Below, in pieces: positions 6,833 to 26,547 of a stretch of DNA of 41,406 bases. The position numbers were made by a program, and so were the translations under genes. Source of the DNA: Cytophagales bacterium (GTDB taxonomy: Bacteria; Bacteroidota; Bacteroidia; Cytophagales; CCMP332); contig JANQSY010000040.1 in NCBI GenBank assembly GCA_028279065.1, positions 1 through 41,406 on the forward strand. Reading direction: 5' to 3'. Numbering within the stretch: the first letter of the stretch is position 1; each line of letters begins with the position of its first letter. The notes below the pieces were generated by a model. The model was not told the DNA's origin and made no database searches. It worked only from the letters and a program-made list of their open reading frames with translations.

Positions 6833-7762
6833 ATGAAACAGTTCTTCTTAGCTCTTATTTTTGGTCAATTGGTCCTTTCGTCATGCCAGGATGAATCCCC
6901 TTTTGGGCCGGATGACCCTATTCCCAGCACCCCTATGACGGGCACCATCAATAATCAGGCATGGCAAATGCAAAGTGTTGGAGGAAGGTACGATTTTTCG
7001 AATGGGGGTCAGGGTGACAAAGTAGAGACCATCTCGCTTTACTTCTTTGAGGTCCCCGATTTCCAGTTCTGTTATGGAATATTGGATACTTCACTTGGAC
7101 CGTTTTTGAATCTGACCCTGGAGCCGAAGATCGGCAGACAAACAGTTGGCGTGAACACCTTTGTTACAGGCTTCTTCCTTCAAAATGTATCCTATCAATA
7201 CACCATTTCCGGTGACGTGGTGGTCGACGAATTGGATACCAGCGGTATTGGATACATAAAGGGAAGGATCTCCTACCGAAATTCATCCCAGGGAAGCCCA
7301 TCAGATAAAGTAGAGGGAAGTTTCGAGACCACCCTTTGCAGAGACCGAAGAAAACTGGAATTCCTTGACCAGGAAGCCCAGGGGATAATGAACGGCCGAG
7401 CATGGACGGTGAGCGATGGGGTAGGTTATGGCCGGGTCCTGGATCTTTTCGATTTTGCGGTCCCCTCAGATATCTGCCAGACTCAGGAGAATTATTATCC
7501 AAGCATTAGGATCTTCGTCCCCAGAACAATAGAGCTGGGTTACTTCACAACGGAGGACCAACCCTCAGGCCCGGGAAGTATATTGAGTCCCTATGCAAGG
7601 TGGGATCCGATCATTAATCCACCTTTCTTAAGTGGAGCTCTGGAGATTGTCGAAATAGATACTGCAAACGAGCTGGTATCCGGTAGGATCGATCTCTTTT
7701 CAAATACCGACAGTGGTTATGCATTTAATGGGAATTTCAGTGTGCGCTACTGCAATTACTGA
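6833..7762 (+). CDS. internally duplicated lipoprotein, copy 1
   Basis: A 309-residue lipoprotein (signal ending VLSSC, Cys18). After a Pro-rich linker it contains two related halves. The first opens with TGTINNQAWQMQSVGG and closes with GRIS...GSFETTLC. The second opens with GIMNGRAWTVSDGVG and closes with GRIDLF...GNFSVRYC. Each half therefore starts with a G-x-x-N-x-x-A-W strand and ends in an aromatic/Cys beta strand, suggesting a duplicated beta-sandwich. The protein at 9153-10085 is a clear paralogue (compare DTSGIGYIKGRI with DTIGIGWIKGRI). I do not recognise the family. A surface or periplasmic binding role is only a guess. Confidence 0.78.
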   Translation: MKQFFLALIFGQLVLSSCQDESPFGPDDPIPSTPMTGTINNQAWQMQSVGGRYDFSNGGQGDKVETISLYFFEVPDFQFCYGILDTSLGPFLNLTLEPKIGRQTVGVNTFVTGFFLQNVSYQYTISGDVVVDELDTSGIGYIKGRISYRNSSQGSPSDKVEGSFETTLCRDRRKLEFLDQEAQGIMNGRAWTVSDGVGYGRVLDLFDFAVPSDICQTQENYYPSIRIFVPRTIELGYFTTEDQPSGPGSILSPYARWDPIINPPFLSGALEIVEIDTANELVSGRIDLFSNTDSGYAFNGNFSVRYCNY

Positions 7763-7765
7763 TCC

Positions 7766-8896
7766 CTAGCGGACAATGAGTTTGGCCCTGGCTGAACTCA
7801 TCACCCCATCAAGCTGAAGGAAATAAACGCCAGGTCCGATCTCAATACCATCAGAGTTTAGCTGGATTTGGATCTGATGATCCCCGGTCTCAAGTTCTCC
7901 TGAAAAGACCCTCTTGATCATATTTCCATTGCTGGAAAACAGTTTAAGGTCAAAATATTCGGGACTTTCCAGAGAGAACTCGATGTTGGCATAATCAGAA
8001 ACCGGATTAGGGAAAATAAATACACCAATCTTGTGTAAATCCTTTCCCTCCAAACCAACCGTAGGGTTTAACACACCCGTGATCATCCTTAGACGACGAG
8101 GGTTGTATTCAGAAATATAAATTGTATCCCCAGTGGGCGTCGAGGTGATACCATTTGGACCTGTAAATCTTGCTGCCGAAACATGTCCGTCAGTGCTGCC
8201 AGCCGCCCCACCCGCAAAAACCACCTGGCCACTTCCATCTGTAGGGATCCTGTAGATCCTGTTGTTTGTAAAGGCGGTGGCATAAATATCATCTCCGACC
8301 AGGGTCATGAAGCCCAGGTTACCCGGCAGATCCCCGATCTGTGTTACCGAATCATCAGGGGTCCTTTTGAAGATCTTTCCATCCGTGAAATTTCCTACGT
8401 AGAAGTTATCCTGGTCATCGAAGAGTAGACCTATCGGGCCATTCAATCCCCCATGGGTCCAGTAAATGGAAGTGTGTCCCGCCGAGTCCATGATCCTGAT
8501 ATCATTTACGTTGTACCTGGCGATGATCAGGTATCCATTGGGGTCCAAAACAAGGGCACCGGGATCATTGATGATCAAAATGGTATCAAAGTTTCCTGCC
8601 GTATCGATCAGGTTGATCATGCCACCCTGAGCCTGTGGAACAAGTAGGTTTCCCAGTGTGTCAAAAATCAAACCGTTAGGTGAACTCATCCCATCTGCAA
8701 ATATGCTGGTCTGCCCATCGGGGGTGATCTTGGTAACTGTGGAACCTAGGTAACGGGAAGCAAAAATGTTCCCATACTTATCAACGGCAAGTCCATCGTT
8801 GAAAGTTGAGGGCCCAGGTACCAGAGTGGACACGGTTTGCGAATAGGCCAGGGATAAAGTAAAAAGAAAGGTAGCGGAAAGTATAGTTTTTAGCAT
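7766..8896 (-). CDS. T9SS-exported NHL beta-propeller protein
   Basis: I start it at the ATG at 8896 because that codon opens a clean signal peptide (MLKTILSATFLFTLSLAYSQ); an in-frame ATG 51 bp upstream adds a non-signal extension. The mature part is a series of NHL/SMP-30-like blades, each with patterns such as DGLAVDKYGNIFA, NGLIFDTLGNLLVP and NGITSTPTGDTIYISE, about six in all, consistent with a six-bladed propeller. The last 80 residues are a T9SS type A sorting domain (FIFPNPVSDYANIEF ... GVYFLQL ... AKLIVR). It is therefore probably secreted and attached to the cell surface. Propellers of this kind bind proteins or sugars; no catalytic residue is evident. It is convergent with copy 1 of the duplicated lipoprotein, three bases apart. 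Confidence 0.87.
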   Translation of the reverse strand: MLKTILSATFLFTLSLAYSQTVSTLVPGPSTFNDGLAVDKYGNIFASRYLGSTVTKITPDGQTSIFADGMSSPNGLIFDTLGNLLVPQAQGGMINLIDTAGNFDTILIINDPGALVLDPNGYLIIARYNVNDIRIMDSAGHTSIYWTHGGLNGPIGLLFDDQDNFYVGNFTDGKIFKRTPDDSVTQIGDLPGNLGFMTLVGDDIYATAFTNNRIYRIPTDGSGQVVFAGGAAGSTDGHVSAARFTGPNGITSTPTGDTIYISEYNPRRLRMITGVLNPTVGLEGKDLHKIGVFIFPNPVSDYANIEFSLESPEYFDLKLFSSNGNMIKRVFSGELETGDHQIQIQLNSDGIEIGPGVYFLQLDGVMSSARAKLIVR

Positions 8897-14954: not shown

Positions 14955-15923
14955 ATGAATAAAACAAGAGGAGTAATATCCAGTACACAGGTAGATTCCC
15001 AGGGGGAAAGCCTTGCGTTAGAGGCTCTAGAAATGATTGCTGAAACAATAAATGGCCCAATAAAGCCAAGGCTAGGTTTGGAACACGATATGTCTCTTCC
15101 TCCTTTGGGGATAATAAATGACGCTGAAATAATCGAAGGCGATAACGGAATTCATGAGTTGGTAGCTAGCCAAGAATACTTTACAGATTCTGAGGAAACA
15201 TTAATCGGGGGAGAAAAATTTATTATTGAATTTTTTAAGGATAAAAAATTTTCGTTTGTCGAAAGTTCACAGGATACCCTTGAAAAAATGGAAATAGCAG
15301 CTGATCGACATAATTTTCAAAGTGTGGGAGATTCTGTAAGGTTTTTCAATGAATTGAAGGGCCAAACTAAAATTGAATTCGAGGATAAAGCAATCTCAAG
15401 GAAGGCTCAATTAAGTGATCCTGAATTCGTCTACAGATTATCAGAGACCTACATTTATGCTTATTGGGGTTCGAAATTGGCAAAATATATTCTTAAAAAA
15501 ACCGGCAAAAAGGTTGCTAAGAAGATCTCCGATGATCTGTCAGAGTTCTATGATCTAATAAAGAGGTCTGCTAAAAATGCTATTCAGTATTCGACCCCGA
15601 AGAATAGACCTATTACGCACATTGTTGAGTTTCCAGCAAAGATTAGTGTCTCCCTAATAATGGTAGGCAAAAGTCCAGAAGAAATCGCATCTGCTTTAGA
15701 AAAAAGGAGAATTGGAAATCTTAGAAATCAAATAGAAGATATTATCGAAAGATTTGGTGCTGAAAAAATTCAGTTTATCCTTAATGATGGCAACAGGTGG
15801 GAGTTGAACTATTTTCTTACAAGTGATGGGAAAAGTATTGGTGCTGAGAGGGCCCATAAAAGGAGGGATGTTGTTTTAGAAAATATGATTGAAAAAGCAA
15901 AAAAGAAGAAAAAGAGAAAGTAG
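14955..15923 (+). CDS. unknown protein with prohead-protease-like N-terminal stretch
   Basis: A 322-residue cytoplasmic-looking protein (no signal). Residues about 5-72 follow the pattern of the N-terminal part of HK97/XkdF-type phage prohead proteases: GVISSTQVDSQGE, then P-R-L-G-L-E-H-D, P-P-L-G-I-I, and a D-x-G-I-H-E-L-V strand. I do not see the downstream catalytic Ser motif expected of an active member. The middle is helical (AYWGSKLAKYILKKTGKK) and the end is a Lys/Arg run. No capsid, portal or terminase gene is nearby, so it is not an obvious prophage. A 7-bp inverted repeat (14916-14922 / 14936-14942) ends 12 bp before the ATG. The similarity is pattern-based and needs a profile search. 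Confidence 0.6.
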   Translation: MNKTRGVISSTQVDSQGESLALEALEMIAETINGPIKPRLGLEHDMSLPPLGIINDAEIIEGDNGIHELVASQEYFTDSEETLIGGEKFIIEFFKDKKFSFVESSQDTLEKMEIAADRHNFQSVGDSVRFFNELKGQTKIEFEDKAISRKAQLSDPEFVYRLSETYIYAYWGSKLAKYILKKTGKKVAKKISDDLSEFYDLIKRSAKNAIQYSTPKNRPITHIVEFPAKISVSLIMVGKSPEEIASALEKRRIGNLRNQIEDIIERFGAEKIQFILNDGNRWELNYFLTSDGKSIGAERAHKRRDVVLENMIEKAKKKKKRK

Positions 15924-16072: not shown

Positions 16073-17077
16073 GTGAGCTTGGTTTTTGGGAGGTTATTGT
16101 CAAATAATTTGGATATGAGGATTAGCAAAGAAGAACAAGAAAAACTAAGAAATTATTGTTCAGCGACATGGAGATTGAATAGCCTTGAGGCAGCAGAAAG
16201 AATGTTTAAACATGTCTTACAATTTCATTTTTATATACTGCTACAAACGAAGGGCAAAAACTATCCAAATAGAGCATATATGGATGCAAGTATGCTGCAG
16301 CAAATGATTTTTGCAAAAACTTTACATATAAGAAAGATGTTTGAGGGAATTGATTATGATGGAGGAAAGTTGGGAAAGCTAAACACCATCATTGATCCTA
16401 CAAACATTGGTATTCTTATTCGAAACGTTTATGAGACCATTTCAACATTCCATTTGATATATGTCAAACCTAATAGTGATGAGGAAAGAGAGCTGCTTTA
16501 CAATTTGTGGGTGATTGCTGGATTGAAATATAGGCAAAGATTTTCCTATACAACAGAAGAGAATGAGGCAAAAAAACGTGAGGAAGGACAAGAAATTGAG
16601 ACAAAGAAGCAATGGATATTGAATTCTTCAATCTTTAAAAATCTTGATGAACAAAATCAGAAAAAAATTTTGAATGTAATTAGGCAAAAGGATTACAAAA
16701 TCATATTCGAAGATGCGGAAGTAAAGGTTTATAACTGGTCCAATATACACGAAGTCCTACAATTAAATCAGGTACTATATGAGAATATGTATACATATTT
16801 TTCCCTATTCTCCCATCCTTCAAATGTTTCAGTCTTTCAATTTAATGCACTATTTAGCCCTAAGTCCGAAGATTATAAAATCGTTGCACTAACAGGCATG
16901 GAATATCTGTTCTCATTTCTTTCAATCTTCCTTGCAGACTTTATTCGAGTTTTTCCTGATATTGGAGAGCTATACAATAAAATTCCTGAAGTCGATCAAA
17001 TCCTTTTAAATTTTCATAATACCCAGGCCAGAGGGCGTCAATATAGTATTAATGACACTTGGAAAATTTTGGATTAA
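16073..17077 (+). CDS. helical protein of unknown function, DUF5677-like pattern
   Basis: A 334-residue soluble, mostly helical protein. I take the GTG at 16073 because an AAAGGAA stretch precedes it; the ATG at 16115 is the alternative. The central segment DPTNIGILIRNVYETISTF followed by an acidic Y-N-L-W helix, and the later YTYFSLFSHPSN, resemble the R-x-x-x-E ... S-x-x-x-H-P pattern of DUF5677-type proteins, which are often found singly in accessory or defence islands. The codons are AT-rich, as in its upstream neighbour 149 bp away. No nuclease or transposase motif is visible. Function unknown. Confidence 0.6.
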   Translation: MSLVFGRLLSNNLDMRISKEEQEKLRNYCSATWRLNSLEAAERMFKHVLQFHFYILLQTKGKNYPNRAYMDASMLQQMIFAKTLHIRKMFEGIDYDGGKLGKLNTIIDPTNIGILIRNVYETISTFHLIYVKPNSDEERELLYNLWVIAGLKYRQRFSYTTEENEAKKREEGQEIETKKQWILNSSIFKNLDEQNQKKILNVIRQKDYKIIFEDAEVKVYNWSNIHEVLQLNQVLYENMYTYFSLFSHPSNVSVFQFNALFSPKSEDYKIVALTGMEYLFSFLSIFLADFIRVFPDIGELYNKIPEVDQILLNFHNTQARGRQYSINDTWKILD

Positions 17078-17467: not shown

Positions 17468-17830
17468 TTACTTAAGATTGAAACTTACAACATGACAAAT
17501 TGAAATTTTTTCAAAATTTCCAGGTGTTTGCAAATTCATATTACAAAAAATAGAACTAGAGTAAATCAGAAATTCTCCTTCGTAAAATCTTATAGAGCCA
17601 TCAAGCAGTGAATCTGGAAGGTCTAAAGGCTTGAGTTTCGTTTTTGGCCTTCCTGGTTGTAATTCTGCATAAATAATTGGCCCACAGCCACCAGTATCTG
17701 GATCCCCCTTAATATCAATAAAAAACTTTTCTACAAAAATCCTTCTGGATTCAAAAATTGGTTCTGGCGTTTCTTCAGAACAACTACAACTGAAAATTAG
17801 TACGAGTATTAGCCAAGAATGCTTCCTCAA
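17468..17830 (-). CDS. small lipoprotein, GGCG family, copy 2
   Basis: A 120-residue lipoprotein starting at a TTG that directly follows the TAA of the upstream gene (zero spacing), which fits translational coupling. Its signal ends LIFSCSC, with Cys15 the better lipobox. It is clearly related to its upstream neighbour: both have a D-x-G-G-C-G-x-I-I/V-Y motif, a K-P-[IL]-[ED]-[IL]-P-D segment and a C-terminal extended strand with further Cys. The family is unknown to me. It is last in a four-gene minus-strand cluster headed by a tail-fibre-like gene and a T9SS metallopeptidase. Confidence 0.66.
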   Translation of the reverse strand: MRKHSWLILVLIFSCSCSEETPEPIFESRRIFVEKFFIDIKGDPDTGGCGPIIYAELQPGRPKTKLKPLDLPDSLLDGSIRFYEGEFLIYSSSIFCNMNLQTPGNFEKISICHVVSFNLK

Positions 17831-22540: not shown

Positions 22541-22549
22541 TTGAGAAGC

Positions 22550-23677
22550 ATGAATAGATTCTTTTTCTTTGAGCCTATGAAGCTTTCAAGCACGCTAAGA
22601 GGGGATATCAGCAAGGTAGGGGTCATCACCGCAGCCTTCATGATGATCTCCATGTTCTTTACCTTCTACAACGAGGCCCTCTTCCTGAGCGATTATAGCC
22701 TGGGCACCACAGAGCTCTATGATTTTTCATTTGCATTGTGGATGAACGCTTTTTCAGGCTTAGTAGCCGGCATCCTCGGGGGTTCTACCCTTGTGGTCGT
22801 CAACCGTCGGATCTTCAGGAGAAAGTCCTATGGCTACGCTCTCAGGGCCACATTTGTGGCGTACTCCCTTGCTTATTTGGGTGTTACAGTAGTCATGTCC
22901 ATTACCGCCGCCCTGGCTTATGTGGGTCTGGACTCCGGCATTAAGGAGTTTTGGGAGCATGCCATCATGTACATCACCAGCGAGATGGCATTGGTCTATT
23001 ATGTTTTTTGGGGAAGCATCAGTTTTGCAACCCTTTTCTTCCTGCAAATGGTCGATAAATTCGGACCGAGCATGTTTGGCAAGTTCCTGGCGGGCAAATA
23101 CAACCAACCCAGAGAGGAGGATCGCATTTTCATGTTCCTGGACCTGAAATCCTCAACCACGATCGCCGAGCGCATAGGGAATACCGATTACTTTCTGCTT
23201 CTTCAGGAGATCTTCACCGACCTGACCGATCCTATACTGGCCTATGAAGGAGAGATCTATCAATATGTGGGAGATGAGATCGTGATCTCATGGGACCTGC
23301 GAAAGGGGATCAGGAACGCCAATTGCTTCCGCTGCTTCCTGGGGATCCAGAAAAAACTGGAAGGGGTGGCTGATCGTTACCTGGAAAAGTACGGGGTCAA
23401 GCCCCAATTCAAGGCAGGTCTGCATTACGGTAAGGTGACCGCGGGAGAGATCGGGACCATCAAAAGGGATATCGTTTATTCCGGAGATGTGCTCAACACC
23501 ACTTCACGTATACAAGAGCAATGCAATCAATACGATGTAAATCTGATCGTTTCTTCTGAGACCCTGGAGCTTCTGAAAGACCCACTCCCCTATGAAGTGG
23601 TCCCCCTGGGAAACATAGAACTACGTGGTAAGACCAGGGGGGTGGATCTGAACACCCTCAAACTTGAGGAAAACTAG
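22550..23677 (+). CDS. membrane-anchored class III adenylate cyclase
   Basis: I start at the ATG at 22550 (a TTG nine bases upstream and an ATG at 22577 are alternatives). The N-terminal half has about four membrane helices (for example VGVITAAFMMISMFF and FSGLVAGILGGSTLVVV). The C-terminal class III cyclase domain runs from FMFLDLKSSTTIAERIG to the end. The two metal Asp are in FLDLKSST and YVGDEIVISW. The transition-state Asn and Arg are in SGDVLNTTSRIQEQC, and a Lys before it with that Asp suits adenine specificity. It should make cAMP at the inner membrane. The stop overlaps the convergent gene by four bases. No receptor or effector gene lies next to it. Confidence 0.88.
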   Translation: MNRFFFFEPMKLSSTLRGDISKVGVITAAFMMISMFFTFYNEALFLSDYSLGTTELYDFSFALWMNAFSGLVAGILGGSTLVVVNRRIFRRKSYGYALRATFVAYSLAYLGVTVVMSITAALAYVGLDSGIKEFWEHAIMYITSEMALVYYVFWGSISFATLFFLQMVDKFGPSMFGKFLAGKYNQPREEDRIFMFLDLKSSTTIAERIGNTDYFLLLQEIFTDLTDPILAYEGEIYQYVGDEIVISWDLRKGIRNANCFRCFLGIQKKLEGVADRYLEKYGVKPQFKAGLHYGKVTAGEIGTIKRDIVYSGDVLNTTSRIQEQCNQYDVNLIVSSETLELLKDPLPYEVVPLGNIELRGKTRGVDLNTLKLEEN

Positions 23678-24561: not shown

Positions 24562-26547
24562 CTACTGAATGACAAGTTTCTTGGTGACTTTCTCATGCCC
24601 AAAATCAACAGTCACGAAATACAGTCCTGGAACAAGATTGAAGATATCAATGCTAAACCTGCCATTGTCCAGATCCGCTTGCCTGATGTAAACGGTTCTT
24701 TGGTTTTCACCCAAATGATTCAAAATCTGCACCTGCCTTGGGAACATCTCACCAATTGTTCTAACGGTGACCTTTGAAGTTGCAGGATTTGGATACAGAT
24801 CAAAACTCGTTGAATTTTTCTCTTCGGTCACTTCATTCTTGAATATCCCATGCCTTAAATGGCTTGGTGTAGGATCATACACCCTGAAAACAACATGACT
24901 TCCTTTATGTGCATGTAAATTCTCCTGAATGCTAAAGTCTATCGCATAATGCTCTACATCCGCTCCACTCCAATAATCAACATCACAGTTGGGACCAGCA
25001 ATGGTCATGTTTGAGCCAAAGATATCCCTTATTGAAGTGGAAACTGAAGCATTACATAGATTTCCATATGGAACATTAAAATAACTGAATTGAAATAATT
25101 TTCCTTCGGCCTTATTCAATTCAATTAGGTGCGAATCGTCAAAGTCATAAACCTCTTTGTCAAGAATATCCACAATTCCATAATCATTGTTAAAGTTGAC
25201 TTGAATTTCTTTACTGTCATGTAGGCTTTTATTAAATAACCAGAAATAATGATCACCCTTACTATCCTCCATCAAGGATATAACTATATGATCCAGTGAT
25301 CCAGTTACTTGGTCGATTGGAGCACTCAAATCAAAATATTTATTTGTAATGTAATTATCAAAAAAATCATCTTGATTCGTATCAGGGCTTGAAACCAACA
25401 TATCATTAAACAATGGTTCCTCAAAATCCAATCCATTTTCATCCATTCTTCCCGACCATTCCGAAAAATGGTATGCACCTTTGTATTTTAGATCAAATAA
25501 AACACTACCCACTTCAAGGAGCTTCTTATGAAGATCAGAAATTTCTTCTTTAGTATTTGAAGTTAATTTGGTGTCCCACCTATTATCTCCTAGATCAACA
25601 GCCGAATTGCAATTTTGGTAGTAATGAAGTTTGCAACCAGAATTTTGCCTTTCCCTAGCCCAATAAAACAAACCCTTGGACCCATATACTAAGCTAGAAA
25701 AGATCTGGTAGGAGGCTTCTTCAAAATTTAATGGAAGAATAGTTCCCCCATTTGAGCCATAAGCTGTAAACACATGAAAGTAATCTATCCCCTTTTGGTT
25801 AGATATTTTTGATAATGCATGCAATTCCTGAAAGTATCTTGTATAAAAACTATCATTTCTTTCAATATTTCGAAAAGGATAAGCATCCGTGGACACCAAA
25901 TTAATTGCTGCATTATCAATCAATTGATTTAGTCCATTGGAGAGTCGATCAATGGCTGCAGTTGTATATTTTGGTAAGTTATCGTCAGGTTCATGAAAAA
26001 TTCCGTAATTATTTACATATCTGATTTTTTGCGGATAGTACTTTGAGATTGTATCAGCATAATCACTTATTAACCAAATATCAACTAAATCTGGTTCATC
26101 AGTAATACTCCAACCCAGTACCGCAGGATGATTTGAGTAATAATTTAATGCACCAACAACATTGGAATGAACTCCACTTGGCAAAGGATTTTTTGAATCA
26201 AACCCCACCTCAGGACAAACCAAGATTACATCAATTCCAAGACCATGAGCTCTGTCTAAAAAACCTAAACTAGGAGGATGAGAATTGGCAACCCATTGAG
26301 TGCCATTTTGAGTCAGATGATTATATGGAATAATCAAATTAAAATTAAGGTCCGCAAGGCTTTGTAGATAAAGTGCATCTAATCCCACAGCAGGGTCATT
26401 ATAAGCTTGATCCGCCTGGGAAACAAAATTAGGGTTTGCAAAATCCATTACTCCAATACCAACAAAAAACTTATCTAGTTGTCCATAAGAAGCTGAAAAC
26501 AAAAACAAAAATGCAACTACAAAAAGAATCTTATTCAACCCTTTCAT
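24562..26547 (-). CDS. glycoside-hydrolase-like TIM-barrel protein with T9SS sorting domain
   Basis: A 661-residue secreted protein (signal ending SASYGQ). The N-terminal 400 residues look like a clan-A-type glycosidase barrel: NFNLIIPYNHL, a central HPAVLGWSITDEPDL with the likely acid/base Glu151 after a beta-strand Trp, and later YGSKGLFYWARE. A beta-sandwich accessory region follows, then a Cys-bearing segment, and finally a T9SS type A domain (YPNPATSKVTVRTIG ... GLYFVTVDF). It probably acts on an extracellular polysaccharide. I cannot name a GH family or the nucleophile. It follows the second tail-fibre-like gene by 36 bp on the same strand and shares its AT-rich codons. Confidence 0.8.
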   Translation of the reverse strand: MKGLNKILFVVAFLFLFSASYGQLDKFFVGIGVMDFANPNFVSQADQAYNDPAVGLDALYLQSLADLNFNLIIPYNHLTQNGTQWVANSHPPSLGFLDRAHGLGIDVILVCPEVGFDSKNPLPSGVHSNVVGALNYYSNHPAVLGWSITDEPDLVDIWLISDYADTISKYYPQKIRYVNNYGIFHEPDDNLPKYTTAAIDRLSNGLNQLIDNAAINLVSTDAYPFRNIERNDSFYTRYFQELHALSKISNQKGIDYFHVFTAYGSNGGTILPLNFEEASYQIFSSLVYGSKGLFYWARERQNSGCKLHYYQNCNSAVDLGDNRWDTKLTSNTKEEISDLHKKLLEVGSVLFDLKYKGAYHFSEWSGRMDENGLDFEEPLFNDMLVSSPDTNQDDFFDNYITNKYFDLSAPIDQVTGSLDHIVISLMEDSKGDHYFWLFNKSLHDSKEIQVNFNNDYGIVDILDKEVYDFDDSHLIELNKAEGKLFQFSYFNVPYGNLCNASVSTSIRDIFGSNMTIAGPNCDVDYWSGADVEHYAIDFSIQENLHAHKGSHVVFRVYDPTPSHLRHGIFKNEVTEEKNSTSFDLYPNPATSKVTVRTIGEMFPRQVQILNHLGENQRTVYIRQADLDNGRFSIDIFNLVPGLYFVTVDFGHEKVTKKLVIQ

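Follow-up and report, generated by a model that had tools for sequence, protein, structure and literature searches.

A candidate phage sensor or decoy with a prohead-protease-like domain in a small, mobile bacterial protein family

The gene at 14955-15923 encodes a two-part protein whose N-terminal domain moderately resembles the prohead proteases of phages, keeps their histidine and displays no conserved serine. Our tentative reading, to which we grant slightly less than an even chance, is that of a sensor or decoy associated with defence, based on a prohead-protease fold that is catalytically dead and belonging to a small, horizontally moving bacterial family. The window, i.e. the whole stretch of 41,406 nucleotides that was analysed, carries 35 genes. 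The features discussed below are the following.

14955-15923, + strand: whole gene of a two-part protein of 322 aa (ORF list; ATG start; relatives at 9 further loci, full-length at 8 and N-terminal at one)
14955-15212, + strand: prohead-protease-like domain, residues 1-86 (hhalign to the phrog_16618 family and to S78/S78_2; model; VIA-align)
14994-14996, + strand: Asp14, invariant (10/10), aligned to the D in the prohead-protease turn D-x-x-G-D (alignment)
15084-15086, + strand: His44, invariant (10/10), aligned to the column of the catalytic His in S78 and S78_2 (alignment)
15297-15305, + strand: Ala115-Ala116-Asp117, read as the S-x-G strand position (register inferred from the gp59 alignment; low model confidence)
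15399-15422, + strand: linker motif R149-K150 ... D155-P156, with D-P invariant (10/10; alignment)
15423-15530, + strand: hydrophobic or helical segment after the linker (hydropathy; weak in the window protein)
15600-15920, + strand: C-terminal alpha/beta part with motifs PxNRP, EKIQF, WExNY and G-x-x-IG (no database match)
16073-17077, + strand: downstream gene, 334 aa, candidate partner (weak match to DUF5677, PF18928; 149 bases on)

Single-sequence Pfam and NCBIfam scans of the 322-aa protein gave no match, and PADLOC-DB 2.0.0 held no family at E <= 1 for it or for its downstream neighbour. The motifs from which the likeness to prohead proteases had first been proposed (GVISSTQVDSQGE, LEHD, PPLGII and D-x-G-I-H-E-L) were all present in the ORF translation. 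Among PHROGs, phrog_16618 was matched over residues 1-95, with E 9e-4 for the whole protein and E 1.1e-4 for the N-terminal piece alone. A seven-sequence N-terminal profile aligned with five proteins of T5-like Vibrio phages from this family (AG74 gp59 type) at an hhalign probability of 94% and E 1e-7; the score was 48, against 18.4 at most for shuffled controls. The link between the bacterial N-terminus and the T5-like Vibrio phage proteins is solid. Both share the N-terminal 95 residues, with the succession I-x-S-S/T ... D-x-x-G ... E-A-L ... PP-x-G, but the phage protein stops at 122 aa, without the C-terminal part. Its conservation is also the reverse of that of the bacterial family, since Tyr or Phe occupies the His site in 5/5 phage sequences while S-x-G (MSYGL) is kept in 3/5. 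The gp59 gene of AG74 (L031:2486-2854) occurs as a stand-alone prohead-protease-like gene whose surroundings are D2/D3 and DNA ligase genes rather than head genes.

AG74 gp59 in turn matched the head maturation protease family phrog_7015 (E 0.015), and so did HK97 gp4 (E 0.0057). Direct comparisons of thin bacterial profiles with the proteases reached E 0.02-0.03, or E 0.48 with a three-sequence S78_2 profile, at probabilities of about 2% or less; in the deeper one of these tests, 0/100 shuffles scored as high for S78 and likewise for S78_2. An improved profile, combining the 10 family members with the 5 phage proteins, gave hhalign E 8.4e-4 against S78 (17 sequences) and E 7.8e-4 against S78_2 (44 sequences), at probabilities of 24-25% and with 0/60 column shuffles as high in either case. 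In both alignments the protease His coincided with His44 and the D-x-x-G-D turn with D14-G17. Pfam Peptidase_S78_2 (PF14550) also appeared at the matching place, below cut-off, in 2/5 N-terminal pieces of relatives (E 0.03 and 0.044). T4 gp21 compared by sequence did no better than column shuffles (18/60 and 6/60 as high). The domain compares with HK97-type Peptidase_S78 (PF04586) and XkdF-type Peptidase_S78_2 by its D-x-x-G-D turn, helix, His strand and P-x-G turn, all in register; it differs from them by the lack of a conserved Ser, an extra C-terminal part of about 200 aa, the absence of observed capsid or portal neighbours and scores below the Pfam cut-offs. Another genome (G194, L029:1477-1896) encodes a lone protein of 140 aa that clearly matches Peptidase_S78_2 (E 6e-14) and keeps both NHD and GFSIEG, apparently with no head genes in the 3.4 kb seen.

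The full-length AlphaFold model built from three sequences was poor (pLDDT 53) and uninformative in structure searches; its PDB search gave no assemblin-type match at the top, and VIA-align placed a single assemblin-type protease, that of PRV, in its best 50 rows, at rank 38. A model of residues 1-142 from seven sequences displayed ten-residue block means of 74-92 over residues 1-80, except for two at 54 and 68; the dip to 54 fell in block 41-50, which holds His44, and the model was poor after residue 80. With Foldseek, nothing in PDB or BFVD matched this model at E <= 0.001; by rank, T4 gp21 (5jbl) was 8th in PDB and named prohead proteases were 5th and 9th in BFVD. With VIA-align on 996 solved chains, T4 gp21 came first (Z 5.6, rmsd 2.5 over 76 residues), followed by the varicella-zoster protease (Z 5.5), the pseudorabies protease twice (5.0 and 4.9) and, in fifth place, an unrelated protein (3.8). 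The superfamily supplied 15 rows in the top 20 and 18 in the top 50, many of them repeats of one herpesvirus protein. T4 gp21 and the herpesvirus assemblins are therefore the best solved-structure matches of the domain, with alignments limited to residues 1-86, so that the Ser strand falls outside their coverage, and, for gp21, no sequence signal. The catalytic residues of gp21 are His85 and Ser140; the aligned range (model 1-81, 5jbl chain 37-122) would place His44 near His85.

These matches were read as support rather than proof, since values of Z below 8 may stem from an arrangement that many proteins share; a missing structural match, for its part, was not counted as evidence for different folds. 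The strand and turn order of prohead proteases claimed in the preliminary description stood up moderately, the S78 and S78_2 profile matches lying above all shuffles and T4 gp21 being the top structural match. Profile and structure together amount to a moderate-strength match (E ~8e-4 for each protease family; Z 5.6 for T4 gp21), with His kept and Ser lost. We consider it quite unlikely that the resemblance is due to chance, i.e. that the domain is a generic beta-alpha-beta-beta unit which bears a PPxG turn and has no relation to prohead proteases. The HHalign probability of about 24% against S78/S78_2 even with the best profile, the range of Z and the failure of T4 gp21 to match by sequence would agree with such a coincidence. 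It is opposed by two separate protease families which beat all shuffles and share one register, where the catalytic His falls on His44, by the top four among the 996 solved chains aligned, all proteases of the prohead-protease/assemblin fold, and by the intermediate phage family, which links independently to the head maturation proteases.

Ten positions were invariant in the 10 sequences: D14, L25, N33, H44, P49, G52, D117, N120, D155 and P156. The best-fit S-x-G site reads [ILV]-x-x-D, where residue 115 is A4/S4/K1/Q1 among the 10 members and A in the window protein, in line with the initial remark that no catalytic Ser was visible, and where Asp117 does not vary. No Ser after His44 was invariant in any register among the 10 sequences; the most frequent one, in the RK linker motif, occurred in 7/10. 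Ser was therefore lost in at least some members by any register, while His was kept in all, and the bacterial protein is thus probably not a serine protease. The unchanging His and D117/N120 suggest that the pocket still does something, and a pure decoy would not obviously need an invariant His. The domain may then not be dead: a changed active site, with His44 accompanied by Asp14, Asp117 and Asn120, could perform another hydrolysis or bind a ligand, in which case the protein would be an enzyme or a ligand switch in its own right. This we hold to be unlikely. Invariance of D14, H44, D117 and N120 in 10/10 sequences, down to 23% identity, goes beyond what a pure bait needs; against it, no known family matches, and no model was confident enough to show these residues meeting, Asp117 and Asn120 lying in the low-confidence part.

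The domain is followed by a linker (RK...DPE) and, in most members, by a hydrophobic segment; beyond these comes an alpha/beta part that carries the motifs PKNRP, EKIQF, W-E-x-N-Y and G-x-x-IG. The best 19-residue hydropathy of the segment was 0.8-1.9 in most members and membrane-like in some relatives (1.7-1.9 in L022 and L205); the window and Litoribacter proteins had their best stretch elsewhere, near residues 210-220. The conserved C-terminal part measures about 200 residues, and neither a family nor a solved structure was matched by it. A prohead-protease fold used on its own, as the protein had been described, fits the 122-aa phage relatives instead. Nor was the protein Lys-rich overall, as its remainder had been described: K+R and D+E were 52 and 51, and only the last dozen residues are rich in Lys.

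The family comprised 10 loci, the window included, from two classes of one phylum (tblastn and profile searches). The nine relatives and, where recorded, the neighbours of interest are listed here.

Emticicia oligotrophica, conjugative plasmid pEMTOL01 (typed conjugative): one copy; RloA/RloB-AbiL type pair, of which RloB and an ATPase matching AbiL families, with KwaA/KwaB within 6 kb
Litoribacter ruber (G310): one copy; AbiEi/AbiEii and a type IIG restriction enzyme
UBA5008, a Flammeovirgaceae genome: one copy; TIR-TM protein
G677: two copies in two places; TIR effector at the second
G750 and G454: one copy each
G892, from another class of the same phylum: N-terminal relative
G1016, from another class of the same phylum: NucC-like PD-DExK protein

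Full length was observed in 8/9 relatives, at 24-38% identity to the window protein; the G892 relative had the N-terminal domain in common (E 1.4e-12, positions 1-95) and a shorter C-terminal part. Distribution was rare and patchy, since tallies were low at every level: 3/395 genomes in the class with a single-protein query (own genome and one false row included), 9/390 in the order with a three-row profile (own genome and three false rows included), 3/296 in the phylum, 2/81 in the family of G892 and 1/3 in the family of the window genome, whose two other genomes lacked it. On reading of the ORF sequences, G252 (stress-protein type), G275, G072, G631 (histidine kinase), G553 (GMP synthase) and G700 (MarR-type regulator) were dropped as unrelated. 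Microbacterium phage matches were also rejected; they run antisense to the annotated gene (checked for one of 33). With the window protein as query, tblastn of phages found no relative and the plasmid search found Emticicia only; nor did a relative turn up when viral contigs were scanned for patterns of the family.

The Emticicia, first G677 and UBA5008 copies were 92-96% identical in DNA within unlike surroundings, and the pEMTOL01 copy displayed 96% nucleotide identity to a chromosomal copy in another genus. Among these three close copies dN/dS was 0.335, 0.163 and 0.102. Near-identical DNA in unlike surroundings, together with dN/dS of 0.10-0.34, therefore characterises the protein as mobile and under purifying selection; the same ratios and the conservation over 10 loci contradict the initial suggestion of a relic. 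The Litoribacter ruber copy (L025:7989-8951) displayed one in-frame TGA at codon 204 and may therefore be a pseudogene or encode two shorter proteins.

Nearby genes matched known defence families at 5/10 loci, a count that is descriptive because neighbours were chosen by eye from ORF lists, without matched control regions. PADLOC matches at the first G677 copy and in G750 were weak or generic (a HIT-family protein and a trypsin-like protein), in G454 0/3 neighbours tested in PADLOC had a defence match, and no known defence gene was found among the tested neighbours of the window gene, G892 and G454. Two trypsin-like serine protease lookalikes were seen upstream of the G750 member (L020:4313-5362 and 7722-8381), one of them matching the PADLOC RT-protease model (E 2e-12). 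By eye, the ORF lists of relatives displayed no portal or capsid genes. We judge it improbable that the family is an exapted phage or plasmid protein serving competition between elements, or host take-over, rather than host defence. The fold does occur as a small non-capsid protein in T5-like phages, where gp59-type proteins (51 phage records) are stand-alone genes of 122 aa among D2/D3 and DNA ligase genes, and in Emticicia the family member rides on a plasmid typed conjugative. That copy, however, adjoins defence genes and not conjugation genes, and the other copies displayed no phage or conjugation genes by eye, plasmid status being readable from named records only.

The window gene was the single copy in its genome (3.59 Mb, 191 contigs). 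It had been called lone, which holds for copy number but not for its setting, where a DUF5677-like gene follows at 16073-17077 on the same strand, a pairing that recurs in G892. GC of the two genes was 0.362 and 0.329, the fourth lowest and the lowest among the 35 window genes, for 0.429 in the window as a whole; this fits import of the pair, but two other stretches, 17468-17830 and 24562-26547, were also low in GC. No convincing flanking repeats marked island borders around the gene. A genome of the same genus (G419) had just one nearby gene in common, on a 4.7-kb contig, where an empty site was not demonstrable. The early statement that capsid, portal and terminase genes were not close agreed with the Pfam scan of 10 window proteins (the 322-aa protein, its neighbours, secretion-tail proteins, a metalloprotease and a cyclase), among which there was none. 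PADLOC gave one match only among ten other window genes: the product of 22541-23674 (+ strand), with an adenylate/guanylate cyclase domain (Pfam E 1e-12), matched Pycsar cyclase models (E 5e-9) and is probably an ordinary cyclase.

The DUF5677 match of the downstream gene (19.7 bits, E 0.001) was below the Pfam cut-off of 27.1 bits. In G892 the corresponding gene, 32 bases downstream on the same strand, was above it (73.2 bits, E 3e-20). Among eight genomes searched for DUF5677, the window genome and G892 had one match each, in both cases the neighbour of the family gene; of the other six, G310 had one weak match elsewhere and five had none. The two genes displayed no similarity to each other by BLASTP, and they are tied together by their position and by the Pfam match that each of them has. 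We take the pairing as real but not obligatory (2/10 loci).

In the explanation that we tentatively favour, that of a defence-associated sensor or decoy, the N-terminal domain would be a catalytically dead relative of the phage prohead protease fold, with the pocket His and nearby Asp/Asn kept and the Ser nucleophile lost. The target of this domain would be a phage component of late infection: the prohead protease of the phage, with which the domain would pair as a decoy subunit, or those segments of capsid or scaffold that prohead proteases bind. Recognition would free or activate the conserved C-terminal part, in which there is a hydrophobic or amphipathic helix; this part, together with the DUF5677 partner where present, may stop growth of the infected cell. 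The analysis shows the gene and its family, the likeness in fold, the kept His and lost Ser, mobility, purifying selection, DUF5677 pairs at two loci and defence-type neighbours at 5/10; in the scheme above we infer what is sensed, that an effector step exists and how the effector acts. Z-scores of 5-6, the single assemblin-type row of the full-length model, the absence of a Foldseek match at E <= 0.001 and of a T4 gp21 sequence signal speak against the defence reading, as do the presence of DUF5677 at only 2/10 loci and the absence of a tested defence neighbour at 3/10, with weak or generic matches at two more.

A sensor or decoy role is consistent with the defence genes at 5/10 loci and with a published case, in which the prohead protease of phage Bas13 binds and activates the CBASS cyclase CdnD (Richmond-Buccola 2024, as cited in PMC12409349 and PMC11312562). 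According to these secondary accounts (PMC12409349, PMC11312562), CdnD is a bacterial defence protein responding to a prohead protease, one of the roles proposed here for the window protein; in CBASS, however, the protease comes from the phage and a cyclase does the sensing. Here the protease-like domain is inside the bacterial protein. In the literature library searched, no title or abstract described this family. The domain superfamily is known; its Ser-less version with a C-terminal part and, in some lineages, a DUF5677 partner is named in no library searched.

Integrated decoys operate in plant immunity. A bolder form of the favoured reading, which we regard as doubtful, is a bacterial family of immune receptors that captured a dead capsid-maturation protease as bait, would pair with or mimic the invader's protease, and would fire a C-terminal effector, with a dedicated DUF5677 partner in some lineages. 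If true, it would explain a family that has no name in Pfam, NCBIfam or PADLOC and would provide a first handle on DUF5677; capsid maturation, common to tailed phages and herpesviruses, would then be guarded by a bacterial protein derived from the enzyme behind this step, much like the integrated decoys of plants.
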